The notes below the pieces were generated by a model, which saw only the letters and a program-made list of their open reading frames with translations, did no database searches and was not told where the DNA came from. From Microbulbifer sp. YPW16 (GTDB lineage: Bacteria; Pseudomonadota; Gammaproteobacteria; Pseudomonadales; Cellvibrionaceae): a stretch of 64,000 nucleotides of DNA. Position 1 is the first letter of the stretch. The number at the start of each line of letters is the position of its first letter. The stretch is from assembly GCF_021290385.1 (NCBI RefSeq), contig NZ_CP089928.1, positions 2,960,501 through 3,024,500 of the forward strand. The letters run 5' to 3'. Shown one piece after another: positions 26,588-31,229 of this stretch. Made by a program: the position numbers and the translations under genes.

Positions 26588-27322
26588 TCAGATATTCAGG
26601 CTGCGCCCGCCATCCACGGCCAGTACCTGGCCGGTGATGTAATCCTGGCCACTGACCAGGAAGCGCACGGTACGGGCGATATCCGCCTCGCGGCCGGTGC
26701 GCCCCATGGGGATACGCTGGAGGATGCCGGCCTGGGTTTCGCTGTCCACGGCCTCGTCCTCGCTCTCCGGCCAGAGGATGGCCCCGGGCGCCACGGCATT
26801 GACCCGTACCTGTGGTGCCAGCTCCAGCGCCAGGCTCTTGGTGACCATTACCAGCCCCGCCTTGGCGGCGCAGTAGATGGTGTGCTGCGGCATGGGCCGC
26901 TCGGCGTGGATATCGGCCATATTGACGATGCAGCCGTTATCGCGGGAAAGGCTGGGTGCCAGCGCCTGGCTGAGGAAAAAGGGCGCTTTCAGGTTGCTGC
27001 CCATCAGTTCATCCCAGACGGACTCGTCGGCCTCGCCGATGGGGGTGGGATGGAAGGCCGAGGCGTTGTTCACCAGCGCATCGATGCCGCCCCACTGCGC
27101 CGTTGCCGCCGCTGCCAGGGCCTCGCAGTCCGCCTGGCTGGCAAGCGGGCTCTGGATGGCAACGGCGGAGTCCGCACGGATACCGTTCAGCTCTTCGGCC
27201 AGGGCCCGGGCCCGGGTGCCGGAACTGCGGTAGTGGATCACCACCCGGTGGTCGCGGTGGAGTTCGCGGGCGATGGCGCGACCCAGGCGGGCGGCGGCGC
27301 CGGTGACGAGGGCGTTACGCAT
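26588..27322 (-). CDS. Pteridine reductase-like short-chain dehydrogenase
   Basis: The 244-residue SDR has the nucleotide motif [13 protein letters not shown] (6-18), with [13 protein letters not shown] after it as in NADPH-using pteridine reductases. LVNNAS is the NNAG-like motif. The catalytic Tyr and Lys are in YCAAKAG. The C-terminus is [10 protein letters not shown]. Nearby folate genes (folB, folK) and cca fit the Pseudomonas-like order with a PTR1/FolM-like reductase. It overlaps cca by 8 bases. Dihydrobiopterin or dihydromonapterin reduction is the likely reaction. Confidence 0.85.
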
Positions 27323-28556
27323 CTGCGTCCTTCTGTTCCTGTTCTTTCTCTTTCATGACCTGCGCAATGGCGTCGATCCGGGCCCGGTCCAGTGCCTGGC
27401 CCAGTTCCGCACCCTCGTAGCCCTGCTCGATCAGTGGTTGTACCGAGACGGCCTCGGCGGCGGCGCGCACCCTGCGCAGGAAGTCCGGCTGGGGGTAGTC
27501 GCGATCTGCCAAGCCCGCGCGCCCACGGGCGTCGGCCTCGCAGGCCAGCAGGAAATCCTCGAAACGCTCCGGGCGTCGCAGGGCATCCAGGGCGCGCAGC
27601 ATTTTCATCAGCGTCTGGGGGCGCAGCTCGAAGGCGCGGTGGCAGTGCAGGTGATATTCGCAGACGCCGGCAGCGAGTGCGGTCAGTTGTTTCGGCACCC
27701 GCCAGCGCTTGCATACGTCGCGCACCAGCGGCAGGCCGGCCTTTTCGTGGCCGCGGTGGCTGGGCAGGACCTCTTCGGGGGTGATGCCCTTGCCCAGGTC
27801 ATGCATTAACACTGCGAAGCGCACCTCCAGGCGGGGCGGTGCGATACGCAGGGCGAGCAGCACATGCTCGCCGGTATCCACCTCCGGATGATGCCTGGGC
27901 GGCTGCGGCACGCCGAACAGGCGGTCAACTTCCGGCAGCAGTATCTTCAGTGCGCCGCATTCCCGCAGCACGCGGATAAACACATCCGGGTCCGGCTCGG
28001 TGATTGCCCGGCTGATTTCCTTCCATACCCGCTCGGCCACCAGGTGCTCGACCTCACCGGCCTCAACCATCTGGCGCATCAGGCCCATGGTGTCGTCGGC
28101 AATCTGGAAGCCCAGGTGGTGGTAGCGGGCGGCAAAACGGGCCACCCGCAGTATGCGCAGGGGGTCCTCGGCGAAAGCGGGGGATACGTGGCGCAGCAAC
28201 CGGGCTTCAAGGTCGGCGCGACCGTTATAGGGGTCGATCAGCTCGCCGCTGTCATCCTCGGCCATGGCGTTGATGGTGAGGTCGCGGCGCAGCAGGTCCT
28301 GCTCCAGGGTGACGTCGGGGTCGGCGTGAACGGTGAAACCACCGTAACCGTGGCCGCTCTTGCGCTCGGTGCGGGCCAGGGCGTACTCCTCGCTGGTATC
28401 CGGGTGCAGGAATACGGGGAAGTCGCGGCCTACAGGGGTGAAGCCCTGCGCGCGCATATCGTCTTCGGTTGCACCCACGACCACCCAGTCCCGCTCGTGC
28501 ACCGGGCGCTCGAGGAGCCTGTCGCGGACTGCGCCGCCCACCAGGTAGATTTTCAT
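27315..28556 (-). CDS. cca: Multifunctional CCA tRNA nucleotidyltransferase
   Basis: A 413-residue enzyme that builds or repairs the tRNA 3' CCA. The N-terminal nucleotidyltransferase head has GGAVRDRLL (7-15), and LTINAMAED and [12 protein letters not shown] follow. A metal-dependent HD domain ([13 protein letters not shown] and GHEKAGLPL) adds phosphatase and phosphodiesterase activities, as in the E. coli type. Its start lies about 120 bases downstream of a strong intrinsic terminator, so a leader-attenuated supply of cca is possible. Confidence 0.96.
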
Positions 28557-28675
28557 CGCGGGGGCCTCGCGGGGGGAATACTGCTGTGCCGGTCTCGGCT
28601 CTGTACCACTGTAATTCCTTGCGTCCGGCGCCGTGGAGAGCGTTCAAAGAGGAGGGGATTGAGCTTCTGGAAGAT

Positions 28676-28706
28676 AAAAAAAAGGCCCCGAAAAAACAAG
28701 GGGGCC
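28676..28706 (-). terminator. Intrinsic terminator of the candidate small RNA
   Basis: On the minus strand GGCCCC, an 11-base loop rich in T, GGGGCC and then eight T residues. It lies upstream of the cca start, so it ends a transcript made before cca. Confidence 0.85.
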
Positions 28707-28815
28707 CAGGGTCTTAGGGTATACGCGTCGGCCCGGGGGCCGAAAAAGACTGTGCCCGGGGACGGGCGGAGTCGCCGGGCGACTCGGGTGGCAGTAAAGA
28801 CCTGACTGCCAGATG
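28676..28815 (-). ncRNA. Candidate structured small RNA or attenuated cca leader
   Basis: On the minus strand a near-consensus promoter (start near 28815) and an intrinsic terminator at 28676-28706 define an RNA of about 140 bases with no good ORF. It can fold into stems at 28790-28810 (GGCAGT/ACTGCC), 28769-28785 (GAGTCGC/GCGACTC) and two shorter GC stems before the terminator. I see no match to a known RNA. It ends about 120 bases before the cca start, so it could be a free sRNA or a leader whose read-through feeds cca. Confidence 0.6.
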
Positions 28816-28821
28816 ATGACA

Positions 28822-28849
28822 ATTCTATTAAACCTGTCTTACCTGTCAA
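28822..28849 (-). promoter_or_regulatory. Strong sigma-70 promoter of the candidate small RNA
   Basis: On the minus strand: TTGACA at 28844-28849, a 16-base spacer and TAGAAT at 28822-28827. It sits in a local AT-rich stretch and points toward the terminator at 28676. Confidence 0.75.
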
Positions 28850-28927
28850 CAATTCATTTCGAGATTTTATTGAGGGACTTGGGATTACGTTCGTTAATAC
28901 ACTATGAGGCCGAGCTAACGGCTGATT

Positions 28928-28956
28928 TTGCCAAAGCAAGCAGCATATTTTATAAG
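28928..28956 (+). promoter_or_regulatory. Sigma-70 promoter of the HTH/pseudo-receiver gene
   Basis: TTGCCA (28928-28933), a 17-base spacer and TATAAG (28951-28956) give a start near 28963 and a leader of about 108 bases before the ATG at 29072. It is divergent from the small-RNA promoter; the two -35 elements are about 78 bases apart. Confidence 0.6.
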
Positions 28957-29071
28957 GGTAGGTCGATATCACAGCATAAATGCGCGTCGGCGGGGGGTGT
29001 TGGCCCCGTACGGTGGCGCAGATTTCGACATGGCCTGTAAGTAACCGCAGATGTTGGGGGAAATAAGAACG

Positions 29072-29638
29072 ATGAACGAACTGCATGTGCTCACCACCGG
29101 GGAAGCGGCGCGTTATTGTGGGGTTAATTTCCGTACGGTGATCCGCTGGATCGAGCGGGGCCAGTTGAAGGCCTACAAGCTGCCGGGGCGGGGCGACCAC
29201 CGGATCTGTGTGGAAGACTTTGTTGGCTTCCTGCGCGACAACGCCATGCCGGTCCCGGCAGAACTGGCCGCGGCCAGCCGCAAGGTCCTGATTATGGCGC
29301 AGAGCCAGGAGCTGATTGCTGCGGGTCGCCAGGCGTTGCAGCAGGGGGGCTGCGAGGTGGATGTGGCCGGCAACAGTTTTGTGGCGGGCACCATGCTGGC
29401 GGCGGCCAAGCCGGCCCTGCTGGTTATCGATGTCAGCCTCGAGCACAACAACGCCTTCGGTATCATCGATCACCTGCGTTCGCGCAATGAGTTTGCGAAT
29501 GTGCGGGTACTGGTCGTGACCGAAGCGTCCGAAAGCGACTCGCAGCGCTGGCTGGATGCGGGGGCAGACGCCGTAATCCAGGGGCCGGGGGATCGCGCCG
29601 AACTGGTGGCCAAGGCGAAGCTGCTGCTGGAAATGTGA
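29072..29638 (+). CDS. Helix-turn-helix protein with degenerate receiver domain
   Basis: A 188-residue protein. The N-terminus (about 5-56) is an excisionase/BldC-like MerR-type HTH: VLTTGEAARYCGVNFRTVIRWIERG and GDHRICVEDFVGFL. The C-terminal part (70-188) has a receiver-like fold with Asp 120 in LLVIDVSL and Thr 150. The acidic pair near the first strand (IMAQSQ) and the conserved Lys (AVIQGPG) are missing, so phosphorylation is doubtful. I chose ATG 29072; GGGGGA lies about 12 bases upstream. No kinase is adjacent. It is likely a transcription regulator with a pseudo-receiver. Confidence 0.85.
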   Translation: MNELHVLTTGEAARYCGVNFRTVIRWIERGQLKAYKLPGRGDHRICVEDFVGFLRDNAMPVPAELAAASRKVLIMAQSQELIAAGRQALQQGGCEVDVAGNSFVAGTMLAAAKPALLVIDVSLEHNNAFGIIDHLRSRNEFANVRVLVVTEASESDSQRWLDAGADAVIQGPGDRAELVAKAKLLLEM

Positions 29639-29648
29639 AGCGCCCGGC

Positions 29649-31229
29649 TCAGATGGGCTTGGGAACCAGCATGGACTCCTCTTCCCGTTCTGTCCGGTCG
29701 CGCCCCTGGTCCGGGCAATGAAAGCTTGCGGTGATCTCATCACCGTGCAGGCTGTTCAGGTGCACATCGAACCCCCAGAGCCGGTGGATATGCCGCAGCA
29801 CTTCCTTGGTGTCCTTGCCCAGGGGGCGGCGGCGATGCTGGGTGTGGTGGAGCGTCAGTGAGCGGTCGCCGCGGTTGGCCACCGAGAACACCTGTATATT
29901 GGGCTCGCGGTTGCCCAGGTTGTACTGTCCCGCCAGGTTAGCTCGCAACTGGCGGTAGCCGTCCTCGTCGTGAATGGCGTTGACCACAATTTCATTTTCG
30001 CGGTCGTCATCACTGATACAAAACAGTTTCATATCCCGCATTACCTTGGGCGACAGGAACTGCAGGATGAAACTCTCATCCTTGAAATCGCGCATGGCAA
30101 ATTGCAGGGTCTCCTTCCAGTTGCTGCCGGCGATGTCCGGGAACCACTCCCGATCCTCTTGCGTCGGCGCCTCGCAGATACGACGCAGGTCGCTGAAAAT
30201 ACTGAAGCCCAGGGTGTAGGGGTTAATGCCGTTGTAATACGGGCTGTCGAACGCCGGCTGGTAGATGACATTGGTGTGGCTCTGCAGGAATTCGATCATG
30301 AATCCCTCGGTCACACGCCCGCGCTTGTACAGCTCGGTTAGCAGCGTGTAGTGCCAGAAGCTCGCCCAGCCCTCGTTCATTACCTGCGTCTGGCGCTGCG
30401 GGTAGAAATACTGCGCCAGCTTGCGCACGATCCGCACCAGCTCCCGCTGCCAGTTTTCCAGCAGGGGGGCGTTCTTCTCGATAAAGTAGAGGATGTTCTC
30501 CTGCGGCTCTTCGGGGAAGCGGTGTGGGCTGTTGCCCTCATCGTCCTCTCCCATTTTGGGGATGGTCCGCCACAGGTCGTTCAGCTGGCGCTGGCGGTAT
30601 TCCTCGCGCTCTTTCTGGCGTCGCTCCTCCTCGACCGCGGAAATTGGGTAGGGCCGCTTGTAGCGGTCGACGCCGTAGTTCATCAGTGCGTGGCAGGAAT
30701 CCAGCACGGCTTCCACCTCGGCCTGGCCGTGGCGCTGCTCACACTCGCGGATATAGTTCTTGGCAAAGATCAGGTAGTCGATGATGCTGCTGGCATCGGT
30801 CCAGGAGCGGAACAGGTAGTTTCCCTTGAAAAATGAGTTGTGGCCGTAGCAGGCATGCGCAATCACCAGCGCCTGCATGGTCATGGTGTTCTCTTCCATC
30901 AGGTAGGCAATACAGGGATTGGAGTTGATCACAATCTCGTATGCCAGGCCCATCAGTCCGCGCTGGTAGTTATTCTCCACACTGATGAATTGCTTGCCGA
31001 ACGACCAGTGGTTGTAGCCCACCGGCATACCCACCGAGGAGTAGGCGTCCATCATTTGCTCGGAGCTGATTACCTCGATCTGGTTGGGGTAAGTGTCGAG
31101 GCCAAACTCCTCGGCAAGCTCGGCTATGGCGCGGTCGTATTCCCGGATCAGCTCGAAGGTCCACTCGGATGTAGTGGATATGGGGCCCTCGGCATGCGCA
31201 TCCGGCGAAGAGCTGGCTTGATCGAACAT
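29649..31229 (-). CDS. SpoVR family protein (YcgB-like)
   Basis: The 526-residue protein has typical segments: WTFELIREYDRAIAELAEEFGLDTYPNQIEVI near the start, SVGMPVGYNHWSFGK and GLMGLAYEIVINSNPCIAYL. The family is widespread, and in enterobacteria it co-occurs with YeaG and YeaH in sigma-S and nutrient stress responses. No catalytic activity is established. The ATG overlaps the YeaH stop by one base, so it is the third gene of a prkA-yeaH-spoVR operon. It is convergent with the HTH gene, 10 bases apart. Confidence 0.94.
   Translation of the reverse strand: MFDQASSSPDAHAEGPISTTSEWTFELIREYDRAIAELAEEFGLDTYPNQIEVISSEQMMDAYSSVGMPVGYNHWSFGKQFISVENNYQRGLMGLAYEIVINSNPCIAYLMEENTMTMQALVIAHACYGHNSFFKGNYLFRSWTDASSIIDYLIFAKNYIRECEQRHGQAEVEAVLDSCHALMNYGVDRYKRPYPISAVEEERRQKEREEYRQRQLNDLWRTIPKMGEDDEGNSPHRFPEEPQENILYFIEKNAPLLENWQRELVRIVRKLAQYFYPQRQTQVMNEGWASFWHYTLLTELYKRGRVTEGFMIEFLQSHTNVIYQPAFDSPYYNGINPYTLGFSIFSDLRRICEAPTQEDREWFPDIAGSNWKETLQFAMRDFKDESFILQFLSPKVMRDMKLFCISDDDRENEIVVNAIHDEDGYRQLRANLAGQYNLGNREPNIQVFSVANRGDRSLTLHHTQHRRRPLGKDTKEVLRHIHRLWGFDVHLNSLHGDEITASFHCPDQGRDRTEREEESMLVPKPI

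Follow-up and report, generated by a model that had tools for sequence, protein, structure and literature searches.

A putative small RNA gene beside an HTH-receiver regulator gene in Microbulbifer and related genera

Between the gene for the CCA-adding enzyme (cca) and a divergent regulator gene, the genome of Microbulbifer sp. YPW16 carries a near-consensus promoter followed by an intrinsic terminator, both on the strand of cca. Does this interval encode a free small RNA (sRNA), or is it a leader through which the expression of cca is controlled? We studied the question by sequence comparison in the window, a 64,000-nucleotide stretch of contig NZ_CP089928.1 (positions 2,960,501 to 3,024,500), and in the corresponding loci of related genomes. 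The features of the locus are collected in Table 1.

Promoter, terminator, and predicted transcript

The initial annotation described a TTGACA-16-TAGAAT promoter and an intrinsic terminator on the minus strand, and both were borne out, at 28849-28822 and 28706-28676, respectively. The terminator consists of GGCCCC (28706-28701), a loop, GGGGCC (28689-28684), and T8 (28683-28676). The distances agreed as well: the -10 hexamer and the end of the T run, placed about 140 bases apart, span 146 nt, and the T run, said to end about 120 bases short of cca, stops 119 nt before the ATG at 28556. The RNA start at 28815 assumes initiation ~7 nt past the -10 hexamer. The further claim that no open reading frame lies between the two elements does not hold literally, as a mechanical frame of 396 amino acids (28553-29743, minus strand) and an antisense frame of 313 amino acids (27864-28805, plus strand) cross the promoter-terminator interval, but no frame is conserved as coding. 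A promoter and an intrinsic terminator of its own and the lack of a coding frame are the features expected of an sRNA gene. Only one copy of the element was found in the genome.

Promoter-like sites with 9 of 12 matches were not more common than in shuffled sequences (one found, against a mean of 1.1). When 11 of 12 matches were required, a cut-off chosen once the site had been seen, one promoter was found in the 64 kb against a shuffle mean of 0.1. A promoter followed 40-250 nt on by a GC stem and a T6 run was found at a single place in the window, and 40 dinucleotide shuffles yielded no such pair. The conserved block upstream of the -35 hexamer is a possible UP element or second binding site.

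The RNA had been presented as not belonging to a recognized family, and the Rfam search agreed with this. At the gathering score, the 4227 models of Rfam release 15 gave only a tRNA elsewhere in the window and no match in 12 related loci. The best of the weak matches, mmgR/suhB RNA (RF00519), has some likeness to the C-rich 3' end, but with 20.3 bits (gathering score 41; E 0.11) it is at chance level. A search of a plasmid collection gave no match to the RNA. Among the matches listed from the open-licence literature, we found no report of an sRNA for Microbulbifer or Cellvibrionales, none for Cellvibrio, Saccharophagus, or Teredinibacter, and none of this RNA in combination with an excisionase-type HTH protein, a response regulator, and SpoVR.

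Table 1. Positions of the predicted and annotated features of the locus within the window
Feature	Coordinates	Strand	Basis or remark
cca, CCA-adding enzyme, downstream neighbour in genus	27315-28556	-	NCBIfam NF008137, 647.7 bits
ATCTT after T run	28671-28675	-	invariant in genus
Predicted small RNA, ~140 nt	28676-28815	-	promoter and terminator geometry
Intrinsic terminator: 6-bp GC stem, loop, T8	28676-28706	-	stem covaries between genera
Near-invariant single-stranded segment GTATACCCTAAGACCCT, presumed seed	28708-28724	-	alignment
Variable 5' part with GC hairpins	28731-28815	-	nearly absent in six species
-10 hexamer TAGAAT, 16-nt spacer	28822-28827	-	sequence
Two 9-bp direct repeats TTGACAGGT-AAGACAGGT, over -35 and spacer	28832-28849	-	genus and family comparison
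-35 hexamer TTGACA	28844-28849	-	sequence
Conserved block ACGAAC...CCCTCAATAAAA	28865-28894	-	CCTCAA and A-rich stretch in 36 promoters
Divergent regulator gene, HTH_17 (excisionase/MerR-like) and receiver	29072-29638	+	domain search
SpoVR-family gene	29649-31229	-	conserved neighbour of HTH gene in most genera

Conservation of the RNA in the genus and the family

A DNA search found matches in 37 of 58 relatives, all of one genus. The 3' module, ACCCTAAGA followed by the terminator, was present in 36 of the 37 Microbulbifer genomes and reads ATACCCTAAGACCCTGGGCCCCCTTG-n-CGGGGCC-T8-ATCTT. When the 36 copies were aligned together with L054, 40 of the 72 module columns were invariant across the 37 sequences, ACCCTAAGA among them; a single copy of the 36, L003, has ACCCTAAGACT. 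The one exception to the presence of the module was G007, an 80% complete genome in which the HTH gene is kept and the seed and promoter are absent. The ATCTT following the T run is kept even in that genome.

The promoter was recovered, spacer included, in the form TTGACAGKTAWGACAGGTTnnATAGAAT in 36 of 36 copies, with up to five substitutions allowed. Little is conserved between the promoter and the module. The distance from the -10 hexamer to the module varies from 37 to 158 nt across the genus and is 37-38 nt in six species, giving predicted RNA lengths of 78-199 nt among the 36 Microbulbifer copies. This variable spacing suggests that the GC stems are dispensable: the several stems pointed out earlier are present in the RNA of the window but, missing in six species, are not its informative part. 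The core of the predicted RNA is ~78 nt, and its conserved parts are the promoter with its spacer, the 3' seed, and the terminator.

The RNA of the window folds better than shuffled sequences (z -2.9), through the nonconserved 5' stems; the core RNA shows no such excess of stability (z -0.58 and -0.93 in two species). The seed was unpaired in 33 of 36 copies when folded with the terminator only, upstream partners lying outside those stretches; in the RNA of the window, the seed AAGAC can pair with an upstream GUCUU, which weighs against the function proposed below.

To follow the RNA beyond the genus, we searched with three models. Applied to 390 genomes of the order, the module model (R1) matched the 10 that had been drawn from Microbulbifer and three further places, and it gave a weak match in G282, a genome of another genus. 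In G282, the same HTH gene again lies beside the RNA, which retains the seed but has a different terminator. The three other places (G144, G163, and G231) have no HTH, SpoVR, or cca gene beside them and look like chance. The second model (R2), in which G282 was included, was searched in 144 family genomes and matched 73 of them, spread over 13 of the 32 genera (E <= 0.05); it found the RNA in 47 of the 48 Microbulbifer genomes shown. The 26 matched genomes outside Microbulbifer comprise G282, 23 that were examined, and G451 and G463, whose weak matches (E 0.018 and 0.039) were not counted. The matches in G153 and G510 look like chance and were set aside as false, and the accepted members outside Microbulbifer number 22 genomes in eight genera. 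The third model (R3), for which 29 sequences from other genera and none from Microbulbifer were used, found the copy in the window at 28678-28724 with 45.8 bits (E 2e-10). The stretch is very probably the gene of a small regulatory RNA that a family of mostly marine bacteria has retained next to the gene of its likely switch protein.

The rows of alignments A4 and A5 were cut out by exact ACCCTAAGACC, and the invariance of ACCCTAAGACC in A5 is therefore by construction. Freer counts of seed conservation come from the 37-sequence genus alignment and from the family loci of R2-matched genomes, 29 of 32 of which contain ACCCTAAGACC exactly. A5 has no Microbulbifer rows, since MAFFT placed the stem one column off in them, and a divergent second copy in G500 (L382; 33.6 bits, E 4e-7) was left out of the alignments.

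The compensating changes in relatives, recommended as a check of the RNA, were found in part. The terminator stem covaries: changes on both sides were counted in 19 cells (4.5 in shuffles), and 96.2% of the cells were paired, a share that did not exceed 62.4% when the partners were slid. Two other measures were unremarkable, as four stem pairs had changes on both sides, at least as many as which were seen in 27 of 500 shuffles, and the stem showed five further pair types against 5.3 in shuffles. Outside Microbulbifer, the terminator loops often contain GTA, e.g., AGATGTAG and CGATGTAA, and the stem changes (L353, L358, L369-L374, and others).

At the limits of the family, R3 scored at best 12.7 bits on 25 loci of HTH genes in other families, and thus no RNA of this kind was found there. 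Seven further family genomes lacking the HTH gene (E <= 1e-30), G153 among them, gave no convincing RNA. In a genome of another family (G362/L134), a seed-like string with a T run lies on a different contig from the HTH gene and scored 22.8 bits; it was taken as chance because a reversed control pattern also matches scattered genomes.

The divergent regulator, its putative operator, and additional copies

The RNA is adjoined by a divergent homologue of the HTH-receiver gene in 22 of 22 genomes outside Microbulbifer. In the window, we chose the start of this gene at 29072 from the alignment, the mechanical frame starting at 29051. Its product matches the excisionase-type model TIGR01764 with 34.5 bits (cut-off 28.8) and scores 23.9 bits against NCBIfam HTH_BldC, below the cut-off of 77. 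On the other side of the RNA and in the same direction, 21 of the 22 genomes have a histidine kinase gene (receiver-HisKA-HATPase) beginning 92-297 nt past the seed; its domains were tested on two of the genes and homology on all, and in G493 the contig ends inside the gene. The single genome of the 22 where it does not follow is G427, a sister lineage of Microbulbifer. After the RNA, no kinase gene was found in the window or at the four loci tested on the Microbulbifer side, and the only similarity was that of the receiver domain to another gene (26461-26090 in the window; 33% identity).

The receivers of other genera have the usual residues EDQ, TLDxKMPG, SAET, and KPF. In the consensus of the Microbulbifer side, drawn from 38 sequences with G007 and G427 among them, the acceptor Asp is mostly kept and the acidic pair and the lysine are lost; in G427, Asn replaces the acceptor Asp. 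A degenerate receiver thus goes together with a locus that lacks the kinase gene, as in Microbulbifer, and the receivers of other genera are canonical.

Of 40 genomes of the genus, 39 have the repeat pattern TTGACAGNTANGACAG at the promoter of the sRNA, exactly in 35 and with one mismatch in four, and exact copies occurred nowhere else in the 40 genomes. Between the HTH start and the RNA, 19 of the 22 family loci contain GAC repeated at 9 bp, against at most three loci for any other period from 5 to 15. Upstream of 26 HTH genes outside Microbulbifer in the order (G282 included), the 9-bp period was found in 10 cases on the same strand and in two on the other, and other periods in at most four. 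The GACA repeat is probably the operator of the HTH protein. Such binding is made plausible by BldC, a MerR-like regulator described in the part of PMC5859096 consulted as binding 9-bp direct repeats head to tail. The regulator here shares with BldC, as described in that part, a MerR-like winged-helix domain and the 9-bp spacing of the repeats at the locus, but its domain is fused to a receiver and its repeat is GACAGGT instead of AATTXXXXC.

Six species of a single Microbulbifer clade (L384-L389) also have the operator repeat, with one mismatch, next to a yggT-like gene, and no sRNA or consensus promoter was seen at that place. HTH homologues outside the family (L171, L173, L174, L175, L180, and L181) also have 9-bp GACA repeats upstream, and several of these genes are divergent from a response-regulator-like coding gene.

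Some genomes have more than one copy of the RNA. In genus g159, G491, G492, G494, and G495 contain three copies each, one beside the HTH and kinase genes and two elsewhere. The eight extra copies (L357, L359, L360, L362, L363, L365, L367, and L368) lie away from both genes and have other upstream sequences, suggesting that they are probably under other control; they sit as trans-acting siblings would. In G476 (L374:3104-3611), seven 77-nt units stand in tandem behind one HTH-type promoter, each with a seed, a terminator, and a spacer able to form a hairpin. Several related sRNAs per genome are thus found in the four g159 genomes and in G476, and one copy in the genome of the window. Sibling sRNAs such as PrrF1/2, AbcR1/2, and OmrA/B are reviewed in PMC4211561, and the excerpt consulted describes, as here, several copies per genome, distal or tandem, with a common core and different flanks. 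The present RNA differs from those siblings in its seed, in being single copy in Microbulbifer, and in the seven units of G476 behind one promoter.

Proposed function and alternative explanations

We regard it as highly likely that 28815-28676 on the minus strand is a free-standing sRNA gene, probably switched by the HTH protein and presumably pairing with mRNAs in trans. Of the two possibilities raised by the initial annotation, it is the free sRNA that the conservation supports well, with no match in Rfam. The HTH protein would bind the 9-bp GACA repeats over the -35 hexamer and the spacer, more likely as a repressor since the promoter is near consensus. In other genera, the kinase would set the phosphorylation of the HTH protein; in Microbulbifer, whose locus no longer has the kinase gene and whose receiver has lost the acidic pair and the lysine, control would have ceased to depend on phosphorylation. 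The RNA would act through ACCCUAAGACC, a near-invariant C-rich segment of 11-16 nt, pairing with mRNAs. The 3' end of the predicted RNA is a U-rich terminator tail, of the kind that Hfq binds.

Searches for targets gave nothing common, and we infer the pairing with mRNAs from the kind of molecule. No target shared between species was found with the seed complement, G-U pairs allowed, in five genomes, with a 15-mer and up to two mismatches in six genomes, or with an 8-nt seed before ATG in three genomes, and the seed complement near the starts of the HTH, kinase, or SpoVR genes showed nothing consistent. Two candidates were rejected: TCTTAGGG in a PII-type leader of G001 was kept in three of the 30 orthologues printed, and a site in the 5' region of a G010 gene (L259) was found in one species only.

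Known sRNAs under two-component control include RsmY/RsmZ with GacA, Qrr with LuxO, and CrcZ with CbrAB, and in the last of these the RNA gene adjoins the regulator gene. The present locus resembles them in that response regulator and kinase genes are tied to an sRNA as the likely output. It differs in the lack of a sequence relation to those RNAs in the Rfam search and of GGA, in its HTH_17-receiver regulator, and in that its control is one we infer.

A broader reading, for which we see the chances as evenly balanced, takes the locus to be a self-contained cassette with an RNA output, the sRNA being flanked by an HTH regulator of BldC-like habit and a receiver-kinase. The 16-nt pairing segment would have given rise to siblings scattered over the genome and, in one species, to a series of seven seed-terminator units under one promoter. 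The Microbulbifer switch would have been rewired, as the kinase would have left the locus and the receiver decayed with the RNA and the DNA-binding switch kept. If true, this would provide an RNA family whose likely switch and sensor are already at hand, making input, operator, and output testable at one locus. The genomes also form a natural series, with one copy, three scattered copies, or seven in tandem, with the kinase present or gone, and with the 5' part present or absent, in which the evolution of sRNA dosage and control can be asked. The predicted gene is of a known kind, an sRNA gene absent from Rfam, and its locus is unusually informative.

A free RNA could alternatively serve as a decoy, its near-invariant segment titrating a protein or another RNA and not pairing with mRNAs. 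The long invariance over genera, the repeated copies, and the array of seven units would suit such a role, as would the lack of a conserved mRNA target in our searches. Microbulbifer has one copy only, however, and we recognized no known protein site in the near-invariant segment. Neither the repeated GGA in stem-loops of Rsm/Csr decoys nor any GGA at all was found in 28676-28815 (minus strand), so the RNA does not fit the usual type of CsrA/Rsm decoy. Overall, we consider a decoy role unlikely. Less probable still is that the RNA is, or was, an attenuating leader of the kinase gene, with the Microbulbifer copy as a relic. Such a leader would explain the kinase gene 92-297 nt past the seed on the same strand in 21 of 22 genomes, but Microbulbifer, with no kinase gene there, keeps the RNA almost letter for letter, eight g159 copies lie away from any kinase gene, and the seven terminators in series in G476 fit an RNA product better than a leader. 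That the stretch encodes a small protein is hardly credible: the frame PKTLGPLVFSGP is free of stops in all 36 predicted RNAs and conservation extends beyond the T run, but single-base deletions shift the frame in three of the 36 (L030, L113, and L117), 11 of the 36 have no in-frame start codon inside the RNA, and the G282 copy has a stop directly after the seed. A protein-coding module was thus rejected for its frameshifts and missing starts.

For the cca leader, the remaining possibility of the initial annotation, transcripts would end at the terminator unless a signal permitted run-on into the gene of the CCA-adding enzyme. The gene is on the same strand with its ATG 119 nt past the T run, and the RNA precedes cca in the Microbulbifer loci examined. 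Against this, Microbulbifer sp. NKW57 (L054/G427) has a coding gene between the terminator and cca, with the promoter, seed, and terminator intact; the next gene in the other 21 non-Microbulbifer genomes is the kinase gene and not cca; and the scattered g159 copies have no cca in the stretches examined. By synteny, the RNA is not kept directly upstream of cca, and a leader or attenuator of this gene, which we hold to be very improbable, was rejected in favor of the free-standing sRNA. Judged by gene order, the association of the predicted RNA with cca is incidental. A separate block upstream of cca (~28576-28640), with CGGCGCCGGA...GGAATTACAGTGGT and, in many species, GGATTTATGGCAGT, recurs in the genus and may be the promoter region of cca itself.
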